Shown here one piece after another: positions 1-10,935 of a stretch of 10,935 bases of DNA. The position numbers and the translations under genes were made by a program. Position 1 is the first letter of the stretch. Every line of letters starts with the position of its first letter. This stretch comes from Lachnospiraceae bacterium. GTDB taxonomy: Bacteria > Bacillota > Clostridia > Lachnospirales > Lachnospiraceae. The DNA is taken from contig JAJQIE010000087.1 of NCBI GenBank assembly GCA_021199395.1, forward strand, positions 1-10,935, written 5' to 3'. The notes beneath the pieces were generated by a model that saw nothing but the letters and a program-made list of their open reading frames with translations, was not told the origin of the DNA and made no database searches.

Positions 1-2004
1 GAAAAGGGATATCATGTTTTTTACAGTCGGGTGTCCCTGTTAAAACACAGCGGAGAGAACTATGAACCGTATATTTTTGCTGCCTTGAATTCTGCCAGAG
101 TGATGCTTCTTTTGGGAAGTTGTACAGAAAACATCAGCTCTGTATGGGTGAAAAATGAATGGCAGAGATACCTGAAGCTGTGTGAAAATACCCCAAATGA
201 AAGACATATCATTCCTGTCATACGCGATATGCTGCCGGAAGAGCTTCCCGCGCAGCTGAATCGGCTGGAATCGATCAGTGTCGAAAACACGACATGGCTT
301 GTCAATCTGGAAAATACACTGGAAAAATTCATCAGAAAGAAAAAAACGCCATCCATGATCGGAAATGTTAATCCTGTAGCTTTACTGTCCAGAGGGAAAA
401 TGGCTCTTGAGGATCGGGAATGGGAACGGGCAGACAGCTTCTTTGACCAGGTGCTAAACATTGACGCGGAAAACGGGGAAGCCTATCTGGGGCAGTTCCT
501 CGCCGGGCAGAACGTCTCATCCATCGAGGAACTGAGATCAGTTCGGCTGGCGCAAAGCGAACAGGCTTTGTCCACGGAGCTTGAGGCAAAGCCGGATGAT
601 GGCGGAGTGATTGAGGAATGCGTAAATCGCTTCACAATTTCCAGTTTTTTTACCAGAGAGGAAATCCTGGATTACTTTTCCTTTGACGGTACGTACGAGT
701 CTGATACGCCGGACAGAAAGAAGCAGCTTGAGGATGAAATGGAATTCTGGGAAAAGGACGCAAACCTGCGGAAATTCTTTCTGTATGCGGATCTCGAAGC
801 AAAGGAACAGCTGGAACAGACAAAAGAGCTGATCCGAAAAGCGATGGAGCAGCGAATCTTAAAAGCAGAGGAGGAGGATAAGGAAAGCATTGAATCCGTG
901 GAAGAAGAGTATAAGGAATTCCTGATCGATACGGAAAAGGAACTCGAAGAGGAGATGGAAGAGAGAATAGAGGATCGGTATGATGGAATCAGGTACTGGT
1001 TCTGGCATGAACATGAGAAAAAAGGAGCGATGAATGAAAATATTGCATGCATTGTAAATATGATGCATTTCTATGAAACTGCAAAATATTGCTCACAGCC
1101 GTCGGAGCTGAAGCTGGATAAATGGCTGGAGAGATTGAAAAAGGCAAGGGAATTCCGAAAAAAGATCCCGTTTATCATCGCGGGGGCCTGCGCATGCATT
1201 TTCTTCCTGATATTCACAGGCAAAGAGGTGAATTACCGGACTGCAAAAAGCAAAATCAGGCAGGGAGAAGTCGGGGAGGCATATAATATACTTACGAGAA
1301 ATACTTTCTTTTCTTCCTATAAGAATTCCAAAACCCTGTCTGAATTCTGCCGGGAATATATGAATGCCATGGCTGCGCTGGAAGATAATGATTATAATTA
1401 CGCCGCGGAAACAATTTATGATGTTTACCATAGCGCAACCGAGGAAAAGATTCGGGTTTTTAAAAAGATATGTGAGAAGACGATTGCGGAATACAGCCTG
1501 GATACTACAAATGGCTGGTTTTATATGACGGCGGTTGACCTTGCGGAGGATGGGGAAGAATTGCAGGCGTTGCAGCTGGCCTGCGGTATTGGAGATTATG
1601 TGAACAGTAAAGGAATCAGCGGGGAATCCGAAGAAGAATCTGACGATGCTGAAAAGGGAGCGCATTATTTTATCTGTGAATATCTGGATGGAGGATGGGT
1701 GTCGGAAACCGTGAATTCGAACAGCCTGCTATGGACCATCGAGTGCGAAGAAGCTTCTGTCTGGATTTACGAATCAGGGGGAGCATTTTCCAGCAGCGAG
1801 GATCGGTCAGATGCGAAGGTGGGAAACGAATACAGTATAACCGGTGCGTCGGTACAGACGGCATATGGCAGCAGCGATAGCTATACCTTCACACTGGATC
1901 TGAAAAACAATGCAACCGGAGAGACCTGTACCCTGTATTTTGAAGATCTGGACGAGGACAGCTTTACGATTGGCTCAGAGGGATATGAAAGGGAAAATCT
2001 TTAA
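1..2004 (+). CDS. TIR-domain protein with TPR-like region, one transmembrane helix and C-terminal ectodomain (5' partial)
   Basis: The reading frame is open from base 1, so the gene begins upstream; the GTG at 31 is internal to the TIR fold. Of 667 visible residues, about 1-110 are the TIR domain (YEPYIFAALNSARVMLLLG, then WVKNEW). Its W49-x-x-x-E53 matches the WxxxE of NAD-cleaving TIRs; SARM1 has WVHKE with catalytic E642. A TPR-like unit follows (about 123-165), then a Glu/Lys-rich probable coiled coil (about 268-327). One hydrophobic helix (about 391-407) is preceded by KKAREFRKK, so the positive-inside rule puts the N-terminus in the cytosol. The remaining 260 residues include helical repeats and, from about 554, a beta-rich acidic domain, predicted outside. 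It leads an operon with the SPFH and four-helix genes. NADase activity is inferred from family knowledge. Only the first strand of the TIR fold and the true start are missing. Confidence 0.88.
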   Translation, partial: EKGYHVFYSRVSLLKHSGENYEPYIFAALNSARVMLLLGSCTENISSVWVKNEWQRYLKLCENTPNERHIIPVIRDMLPEELPAQLNRLESISVENTTWLVNLENTLEKFIRKKKTPSMIGNVNPVALLSRGKMALEDREWERADSFFDQVLNIDAENGEAYLGQFLAGQNVSSIEELRSVRLAQSEQALSTELEAKPDDGGVIEECVNRFTISSFFTREEILDYFSFDGTYESDTPDRKKQLEDEMEFWEKDANLRKFFLYADLEAKEQLEQTKELIRKAMEQRILKAEEEDKESIESVEEEYKEFLIDTEKELEEEMEERIEDRYDGIRYWFWHEHEKKGAMNENIACIVNMMHFYETAKYCSQPSELKLDKWLERLKKAREFRKKIPFIIAGACACIFFLIFTGKEVNYRTAKSKIRQGEVGEAYNILTRNTFFSSYKNSKTLSEFCREYMNAMAALEDNDYNYAAETIYDVYHSATEEKIRVFKKICEKTIAEYSLDTTNGWFYMTAVDLAEDGEELQALQLACGIGDYVNSKGISGESEEESDDAEKGAHYFICEYLDGGWVSETVNSNSLLWTIECEEASVWIYESGGAFSSSEDRSDAKVGNEYSITGASVQTAYGSSDSYTFTLDLKNNATGETCTLYFEDLDEDSFTIGSEGYERENL

Positions 2005-2046
2005 TAAATCACGGCACAGGTTGCCGTTTTGGAGAGGAAAACGAAA

Positions 2047-3246
2047 ATGGCTATGTTAGATGTTATTACCTATGAAGGGAATCACGATGTGCTGGTTTAC
2101 AGATATCCCCACACGGAATTTAATACCATGTCACAGCTGATTGTCCATGAGTCGCAGGAGGCAGTTTTTTTCAAAAACGGACAGATGCTGGATTCGTTTG
2201 GACCTGGGAAATATACCCTGCGTACAGAAAATATTCCGCTGCTGGGTAAGCTGATCAATCTGCCCACCGGTGGCGAATCTCCTTTTCGCTGTGAAGTATA
2301 TTTTATAAATAAAACGCTGGCTTTGAATTATAAATGGGGGACTACGAGCAGAACCAGAGTGATGGACAACCAGTTTCATCTGCTGCTTGAGATTGCCGCG
2401 AATGGCACGATTGGCCTGAAGGTGACGAATCCGCGCATGCTTCTGAGCAGGATAGTAGGTACGGAGATGGAGCTTACCGCGGAAAGGTGTCTGGAATATT
2501 TCAGGGAGAACGTATCGGCAAAGGTGAAAGAATATCTGGCCAGTGTTATGAGGAGGCCGGAAATGAATTTCCTGCTTCTGGAAATGTATTTGAATGATTT
2601 TTCGGCTGCTGTAAAAGAGATGCTCCGTGAAATTTTTAATGACGTGGGGGTTGACATTTACAATTTTGTGATCGGGATGATCAATATTCCGGAAGAACAG
2701 TACGCAGTGATCACAGAAGGCCAGAGAGCACTGCAGAAAGCCCAGTATGCGAAGCAGCTCAAGAGGATTGAGGCAGAGGGAGATGCGGAATCCAGTGTTA
2801 TCCGCGCCGGCGGCAGAGCGAAAAGCCGGGAAACAGAAGGCTACAACTGGGCGGATGAACAGGTATCTGAGATTACCAGAATGTATGCGGCGAATCCCGG
2901 AAATGTCCAGAATCCCGTGGGGATGCTGGCACAGGCTCCAATGGCGCTTGCGTTTGGAACGATGCTGAAAAACGGCATGGAGCCGGCTATGGACAGGCAG
3001 TTTTCAAATGCACCCCGCGCTTTTTCTGAGGAAAAGCCGATGTCGACTCCATTGGCCGATGTGGGGACAGAGCATTCGGAAAAGAATGTGAATAGCGGCA
3101 GGGCGGAAAACAATGTGCCTGAAAAGGACGCTGCATATGAAGATCCGGTTATGGTTCTTACAAAGCTGAAAAAACTGCTTGACGCGGGGCTGATTCCGCA
3201 GGACGCGTACGACAGGAAGATGCAGGAGATCCTGGACAGGATGTGA
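2047..3246 (+). CDS. YdjI-like SPFH (band 7) domain protein with C-terminal SHOCT domain
   Basis: The protein has 399 residues. ATG 2047 is chosen because GGAGAGG at 2031-2037 sits nine bases upstream; the in-frame TTG at 2029 overlaps that site. Residues 1 to about 215 resemble the SPFH family typified by Bacillus subtilis YdjI (old name 'virion core protein'): VIVHE-like LIVHESQEAVFFKNG, FGPGKYTL, then VYFINKTLALNYKWGT. A charged helical stretch follows (about 215-275), then a low-complexity linker. The C-terminus (about 365-399, LTKLKKLLDAGLIPQDAYDR...ILDRM) fits SHOCT, a short oligomerisation module. There is no transmembrane helix, so membrane attachment would be peripheral. SPFH proteins form membrane-bound oligomeric scaffolds. 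Its place between the TIR protein and a four-helix protein suggests it organises them at the membrane; that role is inferred. Confidence 0.87.
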   Translation: MAMLDVITYEGNHDVLVYRYPHTEFNTMSQLIVHESQEAVFFKNGQMLDSFGPGKYTLRTENIPLLGKLINLPTGGESPFRCEVYFINKTLALNYKWGTTSRTRVMDNQFHLLLEIAANGTIGLKVTNPRMLLSRIVGTEMELTAERCLEYFRENVSAKVKEYLASVMRRPEMNFLLLEMYLNDFSAAVKEMLREIFNDVGVDIYNFVIGMINIPEEQYAVITEGQRALQKAQYAKQLKRIEAEGDAESSVIRAGGRAKSRETEGYNWADEQVSEITRMYAANPGNVQNPVGMLAQAPMALAFGTMLKNGMEPAMDRQFSNAPRAFSEEKPMSTPLADVGTEHSEKNVNSGRAENNVPEKDAAYEDPVMVLTKLKKLLDAGLIPQDAYDRKMQEILDRM

Positions 3247-3257
3247 AGGAGAAAAAG

Positions 3258-3929
3258 ATGAACGGGAAGAAGATTTATCGGACGGGGATTTACATGGTCA
3301 TATATCTTTTGGCGCTTTTGCTTATGTGCCTGGTTTTTAAGAGCAAAACGACGGCATTTTGGCTTGGACAGGGCTTTTCTCTGCTGTCTGTTCTCTGCGT
3401 TTTCGTGTCATATGGCATTCTGGAAGGAAAAAACCGGGAAGCCTCGTATTCCGGGTTATCGCCGGTAATACTTTCGAGCGTTTATTTTGTCGTGCAGATT
3501 CTGGCTTCCATTTATATTGCATGGGCGTCGAACCGCAGCAGGCAGGCGCTGATTCTGGAACTCGTCCTGCTTGCGGTTTATCTGGTTCTCTGGATGGCTG
3601 CATTGCTGGGAAAGGGTATCGCAGATAAGTCGGAGGCGCACACGAAGGAGCAGATCCGCCGTATGGCGGAGATAGAAGAGATCCTGAAGGACGGACGATC
3701 AGGATGTGAAAATCCTGAGACTGAAAAATATCTGTCAGAGCTGATCGAAGCCGTTCACTATAGTGATCCGGTGAGCGTGGATTCTGTATATGAGCCTGAG
3801 CAGGAGCTGATGAGTCTGGCAGGCAAAATCAGCGCGGAGACCGCAGATCCCGCAGCGGTAAAGACAGACTGTGAGCAGTTTAAAAAGGTGTTGGATAAAA
3901 GGAACCGTCTTTGCAGGGCAGGAAAATAA
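3258..3929 (+). CDS. Four-transmembrane-helix protein with cytosolic helical tail, function unknown
   Basis: The protein has 223 residues. ATG 3258 is preferred over GTG 3243, which overlaps the upstream stop, because AAGGAG at 3246-3251 is correctly spaced before the ATG. Hydrophobic helices lie at about 11-27, 34-55, 69-90 and 97-118. The short basic N-terminus (MNGKKIYR) suggests both termini are cytosolic. The tail (about 119-223) is charged and helical (HTKEQIRRMAEIEEILKDG, later SDPVSVDSVYEPEQELMSL). I recognise no named family. The gene follows the SPFH gene by 11 bases, so translation is probably coupled. With an SPFH scaffold and a TIR protein as operon partners, a role as membrane partner or effector is plausible but not shown. 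A decayed copy of its last codons recurs between the two YARHG genes. Confidence 0.8.
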   Translation: MNGKKIYRTGIYMVIYLLALLLMCLVFKSKTTAFWLGQGFSLLSVLCVFVSYGILEGKNREASYSGLSPVILSSVYFVVQILASIYIAWASNRSRQALILELVLLAVYLVLWMAALLGKGIADKSEAHTKEQIRRMAEIEEILKDGRSGCENPETEKYLSELIEAVHYSDPVSVDSVYEPEQELMSLAGKISAETADPAAVKTDCEQFKKVLDKRNRLCRAGK

Positions 3930-4010: not shown

Positions 4011-4070
4011 TCAAAGGGAGAGTTTTTGTATCAAAGGGAGAGCTTTTGTATCAAAGGGAAGTTTTTTATG
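4011..4070 (+). repeat. Three tandem 20-base units, each with a Shine-Dalgarno-like core, ending at the YARHG start codon
   Basis: Units lie at 4011-4030, 4031-4050 and 4051-4070. Each begins TCAAAGGGA and ends in a T-rich stretch. The last three bases of unit 3 are the ATG (4068-4070); the other units have GTA there. Each AAAGGGAG/AAAGGGAA core is a potential ribosome binding site, but only the third is correctly placed. Because the unit is not a multiple of three, gain or loss of a unit would shift any upstream in-frame start. Confidence 0.8.
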
Positions 4071-5732
4071 TCAGAGAAAGGTATTGGAAAAACAGGCCTG
4101 TACAGAGTATTTATCATGCTGCTGCTGTTTGCGGCACTGTTCGTGTTTTCAAAGAATACTGCATATGCGAGAGATTACATAATCGCGGACAGCGATTCCC
4201 GCTATCTGAGTGACGCGGATGTCGAGGGGCTTTCCCTCCGGGAAATCAACTACGCAAAAAATGAAATCTATGCCCGCTGCGGCCGAAAATTCAATTCCGT
4301 GGAGCTGCAGGCATGGTTTAACAGCAAGAGCTGGTATCAGGGAGTGTATGAACCGGCGGATTTTGACGCCAACTATGCGGCGTCTGTTATGAACAGCTAT
4401 GAAAAGGTCAACGCGGAATTCCTTTCGGACGTAGAATATTCCATCGATCCAAATGGATACCAGCTGGACGTTTCGGATTATACTTCTTTTATTGAGGCGG
4501 AAAAGGAGACGGAATCGACTGCAGTCGGGACAGAAACCGTTTCCGCAGAGCTGGTTTTGAGTATTTACCGGGAAATCCTCGAAATGGAGTATTTCACGAT
4601 CGAAGGGGACGACGGCTATGTCGGCGGCAAAATCCTCGGCTTCCAGCTTATGGATCTGAACGGCGATGGGATTCCGGAGCTGCTGCTCTGGATTGACAGA
4701 GGCACAGTAGGCCATACGCTTGTTTCCTGCCGGGAGGAGAAAATCGTCAAATTGTATGACGACACGAATCCGGATATGCAGTTCCACTACTATTCGGATT
4801 CTAATACCCTGATGATGGAATATGAGCAGAATGGGGTCAATACGGTTTCCTGCTATACCTGTGAGAACGATGAATTTATCTGCAAAGCGCAGAGAGTGGT
4901 CAACAACAGCTCTGATCTGAGCCTGACCGGGGGAAAGACCATCCTCTACTATGTCGATGGCGTGGAAGTGACTGAGACGGAATACATCGTCATTATCGCC
5001 GTATTGATCGTGGGCGATGTACAGGATCTGGTCTACTATGAGAATACCGCGGAGAACCGCGATGAATATCTAAAGAGCTGGCTGACGCTCGCAGATACCG
5101 TCTACGCGGACATCTTAAACGAATACCGCCGTGCGGTGGCGGAGAAATTCGAGGGGAGCTATGAGAATATATCGAATACGGTTCATTGGCTGACAGGTGA
5201 AAGCGGGCAAGAATATGGAGACTTTAATGAAACCTATGGTATTAGTTATGCTCTATATGATTTCCTGGGCGATGGTCAGCCGGAACTATTGATTGGTTTG
5301 TATGAAAAAGGCTCAGATGCTGGTCAGCTGGAACGATTTATCAGTTTGTATGAAAGAGGCTCAGAAGATGCGGGAATTTACGGTTACAATGGCAATAGTT
5401 GCGTTGATGTATTTTGTACAGATGGCAATACAGTGCGGCGCGTAGATTCAGAACAATCGTGGCCATATACCTTTTATCATTTTTGTGAAAATGGTATTGT
5501 TATGGGAGCGTATATGAGCGGTGGGCCATCAGCAGGGGGATTCAGTATCTTTCAGCTCTATGCGAATCAGGCGTCGGCGGAACTGGTTACGGAGTATGGG
5601 CACAATGGAGGTGGCAATTATTTCTGCTGTGCAACGACAGGTGAAGAACTTTCCTCAGAGGAGTATTATGAAATAATGGATTCCTATGTGATGATCGAGG
5701 ATATCGGCGTAGAATGGATTCCGATCTCCTGA
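4068..5732 (+). CDS. Secreted YARHG-domain protein, copy 1
   Basis: The protein has 554 residues. ATG 4068 is chosen because AAAGGGAAG lies just upstream and a clean signal peptide follows: MSEKGIGKTGLYR, a hydrophobic core at about 14-27, and probable cleavage after AYA (A34). The YARHG domain covers about 46-125 (LREINYAKNEIYARCG, then KSWYQGVYEPADFD). The usual ARHG reads ARCG here, with Cys at 71. Two EF-hand/FG-GAP-like acidic turns follow: DLNGDGIPELLLW (196-208) and DFLGDGQPELLIG (398-410). The YARHG domain is generally found in exported bacterial proteins, and its molecular role is unknown. There is no lipobox, so it is probably released or wall-associated. Codons from about base 5200 onward are visibly more AT-rich than before, suggesting a mosaic gene. 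It follows the TIR/SPFH/four-helix operon in the same direction, so a link is possible but unproven. Confidence 0.87.
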   Translation: MSEKGIGKTGLYRVFIMLLLFAALFVFSKNTAYARDYIIADSDSRYLSDADVEGLSLREINYAKNEIYARCGRKFNSVELQAWFNSKSWYQGVYEPADFDANYAASVMNSYEKVNAEFLSDVEYSIDPNGYQLDVSDYTSFIEAEKETESTAVGTETVSAELVLSIYREILEMEYFTIEGDDGYVGGKILGFQLMDLNGDGIPELLLWIDRGTVGHTLVSCREEKIVKLYDDTNPDMQFHYYSDSNTLMMEYEQNGVNTVSCYTCENDEFICKAQRVVNNSSDLSLTGGKTILYYVDGVEVTETEYIVIIAVLIVGDVQDLVYYENTAENRDEYLKSWLTLADTVYADILNEYRRAVAEKFEGSYENISNTVHWLTGESGQEYGDFNETYGISYALYDFLGDGQPELLIGLYEKGSDAGQLERFISLYERGSEDAGIYGYNGNSCVDVFCTDGNTVRRVDSEQSWPYTFYHFCENGIVMGAYMSGGPSAGGFSIFQLYANQASAELVTEYGHNGGGNYFCCATTGEELSSEEYYEIMDSYVMIEDIGVEWIPIS

Positions 5733-5863: not shown

Positions 5864-5879
5864 AACATTTTTACGTGCA

Positions 5880-5919
5880 TCAAAGGGAGAGCCTTTGTAT
5901 CAAAGGGAGGATTTTTATG
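5880..5919 (+). repeat. Two tandem 20-base Shine-Dalgarno-like units before YARHG copy 2
   Basis: Units lie at 5880-5899 and 5900-5919, homologous to the three units before copy 1. The second ends in the ATG (5917-5919) and carries AAAGGGAGG, a stronger Shine-Dalgarno match than AAAGGGAAG of copy 1. Confidence 0.8.
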
Positions 5920-7581
5920 TCAAAGAAAGGTATTGGAAAAACAGGCCTGTACAGAGTATTTATCATGCTGCTGCTGTTTGCGGCACTGTTCGTGTTTTCA
6001 AAGAATACTGCATATGCGAGAGATTACATAATCGCGGACAGCGATTCCCGCTATCTGAGTGACGCGGATGTCGAGGGGCTTTCCCTCCGGGAAATCAACT
6101 ACGCAAAAAATGAAATCTATGCCCGCTGCGGCCGAAAATTCAATTCCGTGGAGCTGCAGGCATGGTTTAACAGCAAGAGCTGGTATCAGGGAGTGTATGA
6201 ACCGGCGGATTTTGACGCCAACTATGCGGCGTCTGTTATGAACAGCTATGAAAAGGTCAACGCGGAATTCCTTTCGGACGTAGAATATTCCATCGATCCA
6301 AATGGATACCAGCTGGACGTTTCGGATTATACTTCTTTTATTGAGGCGGAAAAGGAGACGGAATCGACTGCAGTCGGGACAGAAACCGTTTCCGCAGAGC
6401 TGGTTTTGAGTATTTACCGGGAAATCCTCGAAATGGAGTATTTCACGATCGAAGGGGACGACGGCTATGTCGGCGGCAAAATCCTCGGCTTCCAGCTTAT
6501 GGATCTGAACGGCGATGGGATTCCGGAGCTGCTGCTCTGGATTGACAGAGGCACAGTAGGCCATACGCTTGTTTCCTGCCGGGAGGAGAAAATCGTCAAA
6601 TTGTATGACGACACGAATCCGGATATGCAGTTCCACTACTATTCGGATTCTAATACCCTGATGATGGAATATGAGCAGAATGGGGTCAATACGGTTTCCT
6701 GCTATACCTGTGAGAACGATGAATTTATCTGCAAAGCGCAGAGAGTGGTCAACAACAGCTCTGATCTGAGCCTGACCGGGGGAAAGACCATCCTCTACTA
6801 TGTCGATGGCGTGGAAGTGACTGAGACGGAATACATCGTCATTATCGCCGTATTGATCGTGGGCGATGTACAGGATCTGGTCTACTATGAGAATACCGCG
6901 GAGAACCGCGATGAATATCTAAAGAGCTGGCTGACGCTCGCAGATACCGTCTACGCGGACATCTTAAACGAATACCGCCGTGCGGTGGCGGAGAAATTCG
7001 AGGGGAGCTATGAGAATATATCGAATACGGTTCATTGGCTGACAGGTGAAAGCGGGCAAGAATATGGAGACTTTAATGAAACCTATGGTATTAGTTATGC
7101 TCTATATGATTTCCTGGGCGATGGTCAGCCGGAACTATTGATTGGTTTGTATGAAAAAGGCTCAGATGCTGGTCAGCTGGAACGATTTATCAGTTTGTAT
7201 GAAAGAGGCTCAGAAGATGCGGGAATTTACGGTTACAATGGCAATAGTTGCGTTGATGTATTTTGTACAGATGGCAATACAGTGCGGCGCGTAGATTCAG
7301 AACAATCGTGGCCATATACCTTTTATCATTTTTGTGAAAATGGTATTGTTATGGGAGCGTATATGAGCGGTGGGCCATCAGCAGGGGGATTCAGTATCTT
7401 TCAGCTCTATGCGAATCAGGCGTCGGCGGAACTGGTTACGGAGTATGGGCACAATGGAGGTGGCAATTATTTCTGCTGTGCAACGACAGGTGAAGAACTT
7501 TCCTCAGAGGAGTATTATGAAATAATGGATTCCTATGTGATGATCGAGGATATCGGCGTAGAATGGATTCCGATCTCCTGA
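5917..7581 (+). CDS. Secreted YARHG-domain protein, copy 2
   Basis: The protein has 554 residues and differs from copy 1 only at residue 3 (Lys for Glu, MSKKGIG). It has the same signal peptide (cleavage after A34), the same YARHG domain with the ARCG variant, and the same two acidic turns. The ATG at 5917 follows AGGGAGG with normal spacing; the upstream in-frame GTG at 5875 would only prepend repeat-derived residues to the signal peptide. No TATAAT equivalent is seen upstream, so expression probably depends on read-through from copy 1. The two coding regions look intact, with no sign that either is decaying. The function is unknown; the retained identity suggests recent duplication or gene conversion. 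Confidence 0.87.
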   Translation: MSKKGIGKTGLYRVFIMLLLFAALFVFSKNTAYARDYIIADSDSRYLSDADVEGLSLREINYAKNEIYARCGRKFNSVELQAWFNSKSWYQGVYEPADFDANYAASVMNSYEKVNAEFLSDVEYSIDPNGYQLDVSDYTSFIEAEKETESTAVGTETVSAELVLSIYREILEMEYFTIEGDDGYVGGKILGFQLMDLNGDGIPELLLWIDRGTVGHTLVSCREEKIVKLYDDTNPDMQFHYYSDSNTLMMEYEQNGVNTVSCYTCENDEFICKAQRVVNNSSDLSLTGGKTILYYVDGVEVTETEYIVIIAVLIVGDVQDLVYYENTAENRDEYLKSWLTLADTVYADILNEYRRAVAEKFEGSYENISNTVHWLTGESGQEYGDFNETYGISYALYDFLGDGQPELLIGLYEKGSDAGQLERFISLYERGSEDAGIYGYNGNSCVDVFCTDGNTVRRVDSEQSWPYTFYHFCENGIVMGAYMSGGPSAGGFSIFQLYANQASAELVTEYGHNGGGNYFCCATTGEELSSEEYYEIMDSYVMIEDIGVEWIPIS

Positions 7582-7675: not shown

Positions 7676-7885
7676 TTACGAACGCATGCAGAGCCCTCGA
7701 CTTGGCAATCTGCATGCGTTCTTGTACACAGCCGTGTACGGAACTCATGGCTAGTGTGCCGTCTCAATCATTTTTTAAATTATAGTGCTGAAGATGTCGT
7801 CATTCTGCAAGGCCGACGCAGGCGGGCGGCGTCGGCAGATTGCCTCATGCTCGAACGTTTTAACATGCAAAAACGAAACAAAATC
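7676..7885. repeat. Dispersed structured intergenic repeat R1
   Basis: It begins TTACGAACGCATGCAGAG, as does R2 at 10708. The last 75 bases (7811-7885) align without gaps to 10861-10935, and the final 55 (7831-7885) are identical. The six mismatches fall in or beside the loop of a hairpin (GCCGAC 7812-7817 with GTCGGC 7831-7836); R2 has GCCGAT, which still pairs through a G-U. The middle differs in length and content but keeps CAGCCGTGTA and CATGGCT-like blocks. Conserved ends, conserved stems and a variable centre suggest a structured RNA or a small non-autonomous element. Short reading frames across it are not credible genes. Confidence 0.8.
7680..7721 (+). other. Hairpin at the left end of R1
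   Basis: A 13-base perfect stem (7680-7692 with 7709-7721, arm GAACGCATGCAGA) encloses a 16-base loop that contains GCC/GGC. No T-run follows, so it is not a classic terminator, though it could protect or end the YARHG transcript. A second small hairpin (GTACAC 7724-7729 with GTGTAC 7734-7739) follows directly. Confidence 0.7.
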
Positions 7886-9088: not shown

Positions 9089-10696
9089 GTGGGCGTTTAT
9101 TTAAATCCGGGAAATATGGAATTTTCCCGCGCGGTGCATTCAAAAATATATGTAGATAAAACGATGCTGATTGAGCATACGAATGATGCACTTTTTACTG
9201 AGCAACAGTTTATCAGCGTCAGCCGCCCAAGACGATTTGGAAAGTCAATGGCTGTAAATATGCTGGCGGCGTATTACGGCAGAGGATGTGATTCGAGAGA
9301 GCTTTTTTCAGGTTTAAAAATTTCGGATCATCCAGGCTTTGAAAAACATTTAAATCAGTACAATGTGATTCGGATTAATATGAGAAATGCTTTAAGCCGC
9401 GGGAAATCTGTGGAAGGAATGATTGCGATTCTGGAAAAGATGATTTCGCTTGAGCTCAAAAGAGAGTGCAGGGACGTGGATTTTTCAGAGATAGACTTTA
9501 TGTCTTATTTAGAAGATGCCTTTGCGCAGACTGGTATTTCATTTGTTTTTATTATTGATGAGTGGGATTGCATATTTCGTGTTTCTAAGAACGACAGCAC
9601 GGCGCAGGCACGGTATCTGGATTTCCTTCGTTTCTTGTTGAAAGATCAGCCGTATGTGGCACTGGCGTATATGACTGGAATTTTGCCTGTTAAAAAATAC
9701 GGAGAACATTCAGCACTCAATATGTTTACGGAAATTACTGTTACAAACCCGATGGAATATGCGGAATTTACCGGATTTACGGAGCCGGAGGTCGCTGCGT
9801 TGAGCGAAAAGTATGGGGTGTCGCTGGATGAGACAAAACGGTGGTATGATGGCTATGATGTGATGGGTATTTCGATTTATAATCCAAGGTCGGTCGTAAT
9901 GGTCATGCTAAGCGGTATTTTTGACAGCTATTGGACTCAGACAGAGACATATGAGGCTTTGAAAATATACATTCAGATGGGCTACGATGGTCTTCGTGAG
10001 CGAGTGGCCCGGCTAATTGCGGGTGAAAATATTTCTGTGAACATTGAAAAATTTCAAAATGATATGACAACACTCGCGGGGGCTGACGATGTCCTGACCT
10101 TGCTGATCCATTTAGGCTATCTGACGTATGATTTTTCGAAAAAGACCTGCCGTATTCCCAATAATGAAGTCCGTAGGGAGTTTATCAACTGTATTGAGAC
10201 AGAAGGGTATCCACGTATGGTCGAGGCAATCCGCAGCTCCGCAGAACTTCTCCGTCAGACGTTTTTGGAAAATGAGGAAGAGGTAGCTTTACGAATTGAA
10301 AAAATTCACGAGGAAAATTCTTCAATATTGAGGTATAACGATGAGACATCGCTTGCTTATGCTGTAGAACTTGCGTATTATGCCGCGCAGGAAACTTATG
10401 CATTGTATCGTGAAATGCCCGCAGGAAAAGGATTCGCAGATCTTGTATATGTTCCGGATCGAGCATGTATGACACCTGCATTGGTAATTGAACTCAAATG
10501 GAATCGTACGGCGGAAACTGCGCTTGACCAGATTCGAAGACATAATTACGCAGAGTGTCTGAAACATTATCAGGGTGAAATTCTTTTGGTCGGCATCAGC
10601 TATGATAGAGATCTCCGGAAAGGCGGGAAAAAACATTTTTGTAAAATTGAGAGGGTTATAAAGGATATGCCTGTTGGTTCCTCTAAGACAGAATAA
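9089..10696 (+). CDS. AAA-ATPase-like protein with C-terminal PD-(D/E)XK nuclease-fold domain (DUF1703 type)
   Basis: The protein has 535 residues, a normal length for the family. GTG 9089 is chosen because MGVYLNPGN is the family's usual opening and GGGCGGTGA (9076-9084) is a good Shine-Dalgarno site. The N-terminal half is AAA-ATPase-like: IYVDKT (20-25), a family-typical P-loop SRPRRFGKS (45-53) that departs from classic Walker A, and a Walker B-like FIIDEWD (154-160). The C-terminus carries a PD-(D/E)XK signature with FADLVYV (D451), then VIELKWN (E468, K470), so the nuclease core looks intact. Such genes are often present in many copies in gut Clostridia and Bacteroidetes; their role is unsettled, with mobile-element or defence links proposed. 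It is flanked by direct repeats R1 and R2. No convincing promoter is seen in the 70-base gap upstream, so it may share the promoter of the Big_2 gene. Confidence 0.9.
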   Translation: MGVYLNPGNMEFSRAVHSKIYVDKTMLIEHTNDALFTEQQFISVSRPRRFGKSMAVNMLAAYYGRGCDSRELFSGLKISDHPGFEKHLNQYNVIRINMRNALSRGKSVEGMIAILEKMISLELKRECRDVDFSEIDFMSYLEDAFAQTGISFVFIIDEWDCIFRVSKNDSTAQARYLDFLRFLLKDQPYVALAYMTGILPVKKYGEHSALNMFTEITVTNPMEYAEFTGFTEPEVAALSEKYGVSLDETKRWYDGYDVMGISIYNPRSVVMVMLSGIFDSYWTQTETYEALKIYIQMGYDGLRERVARLIAGENISVNIEKFQNDMTTLAGADDVLTLLIHLGYLTYDFSKKTCRIPNNEVRREFINCIETEGYPRMVEAIRSSAELLRQTFLENEEEVALRIEKIHEENSSILRYNDETSLAYAVELAYYAAQETYALYREMPAGKGFADLVYVPDRACMTPALVIELKWNRTAETALDQIRRHNYAECLKHYQGEILLVGISYDRDLRKGGKKHFCKIERVIKDMPVGSSKTE

Positions 10697-10715
10697 ACGA
10701 ATAGCGCTTACGAAC

Positions 10716-10755
10716 GCATGCAGAGTCCCCGATTTGGGCAATCTGCATGCTTTTT
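10716..10755 (+). terminator. Rho-independent terminator of the AAA-ATPase gene, formed by the left hairpin of R2
   Basis: GCATGCAGA (10716-10724) pairs with TCTGCATGC (10742-10750) across a 17-base loop that has its own CCC/GGG pairing, followed at once by TTTTTGCTTT. It starts 20 bases after the stop codon. Confidence 0.65.
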
Positions 10756-10790
10756 GCTTTATTGGAAACTTCGTTCCTATAAAGCAAAAA
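10751..10790. other. Long hairpin inside R2, absent from R1
   Basis: Left arm 10751-10767 and right arm 10774-10790 form a 17-base stem with one mismatch and a six-base loop (ACTTCG). On both strands the T-run precedes the stem and the A-run follows it, the reverse of a terminator, so another explanation is needed, such as a nested palindromic insertion. Confidence 0.7.
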
Positions 10791-10935
10791 AGCTCCGCGG
10801 GAATGCACACTTTGTTCAAACAGCCGTGTAAAACCTATGGCTTGCGCCATACGCGGACGCGGCCGATGCAGGGGACGGGAGTCGGCAGATTGCCTCATGC
10901 TCGAACGTTTTAACATGCAAAAACGAAACAAAATC

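Follow-up and report, generated by a model that had tools for sequence, protein, structure and literature searches.

Three-gene locus at the start of the window

The stretch analysed here (the window) is 10,935 nucleotides (nt) of DNA from Lachnospiraceae bacterium (GenBank assembly GCA_021199395.1, contig JAJQIE010000087.1), and it spans the whole of contig C283. The genome assembly is fragmentary, with 353 contigs and a completeness of 71.6%. Three genes on the + strand occupy the first 3.9 kb of the window and encode a TIR protein, an SPFH protein, and a protein with four transmembrane (TM) segments. The preliminary description of this DNA had read them as tightly spaced genes with ribosome binding sites, and this holds, with gaps of 42 bases (TIR to SPFH) and 11 bases (SPFH to four-TM) and the sites GGAGAGG and AAGGAG. 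Because the window is an entire contig, the TIR gene is truncated by the contig end at base 1. The features are listed below, with lengths in amino acids (aa) and lysine plus arginine given as K/R.

1..2004, + strand: TIR transmembrane protein, 667 aa readable, 5' open (reading frame; relatives carry PF13676 TIR_2)
1..345, + strand: remaining TIR domain, second strand onward (alignment A1, invariant YEP and WVxNEW columns; profile match 187-300 of 300)
157..159, + strand: glutamate (Glu) codon GAA in WVKNEW, at the WxxxE position of NADase TIRs (alignment)
1165..1221, + strand: single TM segment, with 8 K/R in the preceding 15 residues and 5 following (hydropathy)
1222..2001, + strand: C-terminal region, 260 aa, predicted extracellular; no Pfam match at E 0.001
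2031..2037, + strand: ribosome binding site of the SPFH gene, GGAGAGG, nine bases ahead of the ATG (sequence)
2047..3246, + strand: SPFH (Band_7_1) scaffold protein, 399 aa (PF13421, 1.3e-42; alignment A3 with 13 relatives)
3157..3234, + strand: SHOCT-like C-terminal tail, under the Pfam cut-off; CxxC pairs there in many of the 13 aligned relatives
3246..3251, + strand: ribosome binding site of the four-TM gene, AAGGAG, overlapping the SPFH stop (sequence)
3258..3929, + strand: four-TM protein, helical bundle with a conserved YSDP motif; the fixed partner of the SPFH protein

A short hairpin followed by TTTT, possibly an attenuator, is visible by eye between the TIR and SPFH genes (window 2012-2030).

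Association of the three genes in related genomes

The preliminary description took the three genes to form one system, a proposal that rare co-occurrence elsewhere would have contradicted. In a sample of 391 genomes of the class, the TIR protein (E 1e-20) is found in 23, including the window's own, with a patchy distribution across many families of the class. With the own genome excluded, 22 genomes have the TIR protein, 32 have the four-TM protein (E 1e-5), and 18 have both, where 1.8 would be expected, so that the association is far above chance. Among 144 relatives, TIR matches occur in nine genomes besides the own, and seven of these have an SPFH gene within a few kb, the exceptions being G044 and G110. 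PF13421 genes are present in 97 of the 144 relatives, most of which carry one to three of them, and chance proximity to a TIR gene should therefore be rare. In a sample of 299 genomes of the phylum, the only TIR matches outside the own genome are in one member of its family.

An SPFH gene lies within 5 kb of the TIR gene at 19 of 25 loci of the class sample, these loci being stretches around part of 42 places with several from one genome, and at 54 of 78 loci of a wider contig collection. The two genes are on the same strand in 19/19 and 53/54 of these cases, respectively. The order SPFH, four-TM, TIR is the commonest (51 of 80 loci), and the window order TIR, SPFH, four-TM is seen in 9 of 80; the loci are partly redundant, since L112/L193, L119/L165, L135/L212, and L155/L223 are apparently the same contigs, and L124/L138 and L189/L200 are near-identical modules by gene length. 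Cultured strains differ in the set they carry: Massilioclostridium coli (L218) has SPFH, four-TM, and a single-TM TIR protein whose outside portion is short; Lachnospiraceae bacterium NC2008 (L215) and Anaerotignum sp. MSJ-24 (L186) have SPFH and a single-pass TIR protein, its outside domain DUF6273-like, with no four-TM match; and [Clostridium] aerotolerans DSM 5434 (L203) has all three, its TIR protein lacking a TM segment.

SPFH and four-TM proteins

The window SPFH protein matches PF13421 with an E of 1.3e-42 and 146 bits, compared with a curated cut-off of 24, which identifies it as a Band_7_1 protein. Its earlier designation as an SPFH-SHOCT protein is sound for the first part, whereas SHOCT is matched only weakly, with an E of 0.026 and 14.7 bits where the cut-off is 27. 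The third gene product had been described as a four-helix membrane protein, in agreement with our model (pLDDT 92.4), which has four TM-length helices, the last one extending into a helical bundle where the conserved YSDP motif is located. Comparison of this model with PDB folds gave no significant match.

The interval between the SPFH and four-TM genes is interrupted in only 2 of 71 cases, with a median gap of 7. Over 59 triads, within-family distances correlate with r 0.60 between SPFH and four-TM, compared to 0.28 and 0.33 for TIR with either. In a mirror-distance test, all three gene pairs exceed 500 shuffles, which is weak evidence of contact because shared host descent stays in. The four-TM profile (A2) includes L044 and L047, which were chosen by position and TM count. 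Judged from these sequence comparisons, the SPFH and four-TM genes are a fixed gene pair and the TIR protein is an exchangeable partner. The association behind the name "TIR system" used in the preliminary description is confirmed, but with this pair as the core and TIR as one of several partners, the name is too narrow for the scaffold.

TIR domain, topology, and predicted outside region

Complete relatives of the window TIR protein show an N-terminal zinc ribbon and a TPR part, followed by the TIR domain (PF13676 TIR_2). The first residue of the window protein corresponds to column 198 of 313 in alignment A1, so the zinc ribbon, the TPR part, and the first TIR strand are absent from it. Neither this protein nor the four-TM protein has a Pfam family above cut-off (best E 0.13 and 0.10, unrelated), and the truncated TIR sequence found no match in the PDB. 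We attribute the lack of Pfam and PADLOC matches of the TIR protein to its truncation, and its assignment therefore comes from relatives. The TIR profile A7 retrieves mainly TPR designs from the PDB, plus one TLR sequence (2 entries), and the TIR domain of a complete relative models onto NADase TIRs, which confirms the TIR fold. By alignment, the window protein has the Glu of NADase TIRs at the WxxxE position, and this residue is found in 42 of the 45 domain rows covering that column (loci L031-L149). Loci L150-L228, the best 79 of 578 relatives, were retrieved with the patterns YEP[YH]IF and WV[KR]NEW, and since they were selected by those patterns, their Glu conservation was left uncounted.

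Among 152 TIR proteins of at least 450 aa, some of them truncated by contig ends, a simple hydropathy scan found one TM segment after the TIR domain in 90. These 90 have a mean of 6.6 K/R in the 15 residues before the TM segment and 1.8 after it; the count before exceeds the count after in 88, and is never the lower one. According to the positive-inside rule, the positively charged flank stays cytosolic, which predicts a cytosolic TIR domain and an outside C-terminus. With one TM segment at nt 1165-1221, the window protein is the single-pass TIR protein that had been proposed, and its charge bias is among the less clear (8 vs 5).

Of the 83 ectodomains of at least 100 aa, 81 were scanned (L042 and L229 were omitted), and they include DUF6273 (50), RCC1_2 (13), BspA-type LRR (3), Flg_new (3), and many TPR; the window ectodomain gave no family in the same Pfam scan. 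Leucine-rich repeats (LRR_5) can be read from the sequence in L204 and in the first TIR protein of L119. DUF6273 is mentioned in work on phage receptor-binding proteins hypermutated by diversity-generating retroelements (PMC10743442).

Up to four long (>400 aa) TIR genes occur in tandem per SPFH locus, and L128 reaches five if a short gene is counted. Paralogues were compared as 16 pairs drawn from 9 loci, with median identities of 0.60 over the first 300 residues and 0.32 over the ectodomain. For the four pairs that are most alike in the TIR half, the identities of TIR half and ectodomain are 0.94/0.40 (L128), 0.92/0.21 (L127), 0.91/0.46 (L227), and 0.89/0.28 (L119). Topology and variable ectodomains both support the earlier suggestion of a membrane-sensing module.

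In one array, L127 (G229:C9:28001-48000), genes for FRG, reverse transcriptase, and RES proteins are interspersed among TIR genes, three of them long and one a short piece, and the array continues into the four-TM and then the SPFH gene; by eye, its reverse transcriptase is the RT_UG26 match given below.

Genes inserted between the core genes

Same-strand genes between the core genes, here called slot genes, number 50 and come from 36 of 83 loci, with none in the remaining 47; the window copy has none within the portion shown by the contig. They can be found between any two core genes, not just between four-TM and TIR, where 26 of 62 intervals hold another same-strand gene of at least 110 aa, and they differ from locus to locus. 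The scanned set (A9, 50 genes) differs by one gene from the set of 50 used in the homologue search, as L194:13506-13850 was removed (doubtful frame) and L169:11840-12772 added; three candidates in L040 fall outside the operon and were not included.

The slot genes include, among the best 25 of 32 Pfam families and with the possibility that one protein counts twice, DUF4365, DUF2971, and AbiH (3 each), two HEPN families (3 and 2), SIR2_2 (2), and one each of reverse transcriptase, TIR, RES, FRG, DUF4760, 23S IVP, and AAA. Single checks of 10 slot genes at E 0.01 gave a family for all but 3. Their PADLOC matches include RT_UG26 at 1.2e-139 and ThsB at 1.1e-24. AbiH, SIR2, HEPN, RES, TIR, and defence reverse transcriptases are toxins or abortive-infection effectors, and FRG, DUF2971, and DUF4365 count as such families on a weaker footing. 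As controls, 50 genes of 110-560 aa were taken from these contigs at a distance of about 7 kb or more, and the best 25 of their 94 Pfam families are mostly housekeeping. Homologues of slot genes were found for 11 of 708 flanking genes and 1 of 273 control genes.

Rest of the contig

Downstream of the three genes, window 4027-5732 is directly duplicated at 5876-7581 (1706 bases, 5 mismatches, 46 further identical bases on the right), which is either a recent duplication or an assembly artefact. The duplicated protein has a signal-peptide-like start, a YARHG domain, and a weak FG-GAP match. One homologue, in L227:7108-9282, is part of a TIR receptor and looks by eye like the ectodomain; a second, L036:2642-3616 from the same genus, lies about 6.6 kb from an SPFH and four-TM pair. 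A biological link between the secreted YARHG proteins and the TIR module is possible. A repeated element is present at 7676-7885 and 10708-10935, the contig ending inside one copy, and further contigs of the genome carry partial copies, which brings the matches to 10; it has no Rfam match at gathering score. Window 9089-10696 encodes a protein with AAA-ATPase_like and PDDEXK_9 matches and no PADLOC match at E<=0.1.

Comparison with known systems

Among the control genomes, the PF13421 model also matches in B. subtilis, a match that we take to be YdjI. The pspA-ydjGHI operon of B. subtilis resembles the present locus in that an SPFH protein is encoded with membrane partners that its membrane localisation needs (PMC8581546). 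It differs in that neither a TIR domain nor a comparable outside receptor is described for YdjGHI in the available part of that source, and in that the four-TM protein here lacks a Pfam match above cut-off and a significant PDB match. The Pfam scan of six window proteins revealed neither PspA nor a YdjH-type TPM protein, the genes upstream of base 1 being outside the contig and the flanks of relatives not searched.

The TIR proteins SPARTA TIR-APAZ, SARM1, and AbTir are activated by Argonaute or nicotinamide mononucleotide, or are soluble. In the family studied here, by contrast, most TIR domains sit in membrane proteins that have one TM segment and an outside domain. Thoeris (ThsB with ThsA) shares a TIR gene in an operon, and one slot gene matches the ThsB model, but the constant partners here are the SPFH and four-TM genes; ThsA and ThsB PADLOC models found no family in five window proteins, of which the TIR gene is incomplete, with upstream genes off the contig. 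Animal Toll-like receptors are likewise single-pass with the TIR inside, and 3 of the 81 scanned relatives have LRR outside. The order is nevertheless reversed here (TIR N-terminal, LRR C-terminal), a zinc ribbon and TPR part precede the TIR domain, and the domain is likely enzymatic. We found no evidence of common descent behind the shared layout of Toll-like receptors and the TIR module.

Proposed mechanism and alternative explanations

We lean, by a small margin of confidence, towards a membrane-anchored, surface-sensing, TIR-signalling immune module, acting by cell suicide or signalling. The undescribed immune module of the preliminary description is supported in its membrane sensing, while an immune role is suggested mainly by the toxin and abortive-infection type genes inserted between the core genes. 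The four-TM protein would anchor the SPFH protein to the membrane, by analogy with YdjG/YdjH and YdjI, and the SPFH ring would contact and gather single-pass TIR receptors. Binding of an outside cue by the ectodomain, such as phage adsorption, envelope damage, or a rival's attack, might cause the TIR domains to pack together, and the packed TIRs would cleave NAD+, resulting in depletion or an ADP-ribose signal. In loci that have one, the slot gene (SIR2/AbiH, HEPN, FRG, RES, or others) may be an added or exchangeable effector which adds to or replaces the killing step. A distant bacterial SPFH protein assembles on the membrane as a 24-mer around an enclosed compartment (PMC10936438), and the activity of the SARM1 TIR requires self-association (PMC8635717), suggesting that an SPFH ring could set the threshold of TIR activation. 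A possible parallel is TEP1, a TIR-like NADase held in the vault (PMC13174449).

More tentatively, and on balance doubtfully, these loci could represent a class of bacterial surface immune receptors, with fast-diverging outward sensors, tandem repertoires, a flotillin-like raft (SPFH and four-TM), enzymatic TIRs, and exchangeable toxic effectors, as a counterpart of Toll-like receptors in layout. The parts are of known kinds (TIR NADases, SPFH proteins with anchors), and their combination, the outside sensing, and the cargo slot appear to be new. A search of the open-access literature, with subscription papers outside its reach, found no description of a TIR-SPFH operon.

Several observations speak against the immune module. 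The five window proteins have no PADLOC family at E<=0.1. Neither an SPFH nor a four-TM gene lies within 10 kb at 23 of 80 loci; 10 of these are stretches shorter than 10 kb, one of which (L199) had no TIR frame called, but four (L170, L171, L219, L220) have full flanks of about 20 kb. In the hydropathy scan, 48 of the 152 TIR proteins have no TM segment, among them that of the cultured [C.] aerotolerans (L203), and 14 have several. A kept Glu is no proof of TIR activity (PMC7075850). Across all 16 paralogue pairs, the contrast between the two halves is milder than in the four pairs given above, with about equal identities in L179 and one L119 pair, and with an ectodomain slightly more alike than the TIR half in L154 (0.57 vs 0.62) and L161 (0.53 vs 0.55). 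The viral contig collection holds only one relative, so the TIR protein is not a typical phage gene.

The PADLOC comparisons belong with these points. The 50 control genes also match PADLOC models, including those for a TIR effector, AbiLi, and AriA, in 64 families against 99 for slot genes. The check suggested in the preliminary description, enrichment next to known defence genes, gives no clear sign either way: at 1e-10, 147 neighbours match 121 models and 144 control genes match 37, but almost all are single-protein matches of redundant models. Among the best 25 families per set, the neighbours, drawn randomly from 487 with some slot genes included and with one of 148 removed as a TIR protein, match mad3 (2), REase_II (2), and then single MTase and RT models, and the controls match mad3 (6), PDC-S01, mad8, mad2, and AriA (2 each). 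The most populated family, mad3, is commoner in the control (6 vs 2).

An envelope-stress or membrane-repair module of the PspA-YdjGHI kind, in which SPFH and its anchor gather remodelling proteins and TIR is a protein-binding signal part and no immune NADase, seems unlikely to us, although several observations favour it. YdjI, the SPFH protein of B. subtilis, needs the membrane proteins YdjG/YdjH, and PspA needs YdjI for the membrane (PMC8581546); the ydj operon couples PspA with a zinc-ribbon band-7 protein (PMC11237479, where "CesT/Tir" denotes a chaperone with no TIR domain), and archaeal ESCRT (endosomal sorting complex required for transport) loci include SPFH too (PMC10936438). SPFH and four-TM pairs also adjoin kinases or other proteins without TIR, namely PASTA kinases in L047, where position alone identifies the four-TM gene, a 1242-aa single-pass protein with weak PEGA, PPC, and FG-GAP matches in L036, and a 442-444 aa protein of no named family in L033 and L037; proteins adjoining such TIR-less pairs have CxxC pairs near the N-terminus (by eye). 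An AAA protein (PF00004, 2.2e-39) and a coiled-coil type protein lie by the pair in L036 (7499-10181), the Vps4 likeness resting on MIT and Vps4_C matches under cut-off, and a similar AAA gene follows two charged helical proteins in L132 (8292-10640), with a homologue in L131. These AAA genes with helical partners fit membrane remodelling, loosely ESCRT-like. A repair function agrees less well with the slot genes, many of which are of toxin or abortive-infection families and few repair-like, with the patchy occurrence (23 of 391 genomes, the own included), and with the ectodomain divergence in several tandem arrays. PspA was also missing from the Pfam scan of six window proteins, the flanks of relatives not having been searched for it.

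The receptor might instead read sugars, peptides, or gut-host surfaces, with a TIR product whose target is the cell's own regulation or the animal host. We consider such non-immune surface signalling improbable: DUF6273 ectodomains in 50 of 81 proteins would suit it, and gut strains have TIR_2 domains that generate NAD products (PMC9092222, where membership of the family studied here is not established), but the toxin-type slot genes argue against it, as do record titles naming sheep, goat, deer, yak, horse, and rumen samples, since such varied sources indicate no single host. Least probable in our view is that independent defence genes collect at a hotspot beside the SPFH pair, with slot genes and TIR receptors working apart. 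The slot genes do vary by locus, with none in 47 of 83, and the SPFH and four-TM distances correlate better with each other (r 0.60) than TIR does with either (0.28, 0.33), whereas the TIR gene is on the same strand as the pair and close to it, and TIR-positive genomes are spread across many families of the class.

Known bacterial TIR systems, to our knowledge, sense phage inside the cell. If the immune module is real, threats would be sensed at the bacterial surface, by TIR domains placed behind outside sensors on an SPFH raft. SPFH function would then gain a readable output, the loss of NAD+, and the module would provide a bacterial parallel to the raft-organised TIR receptors of animals.
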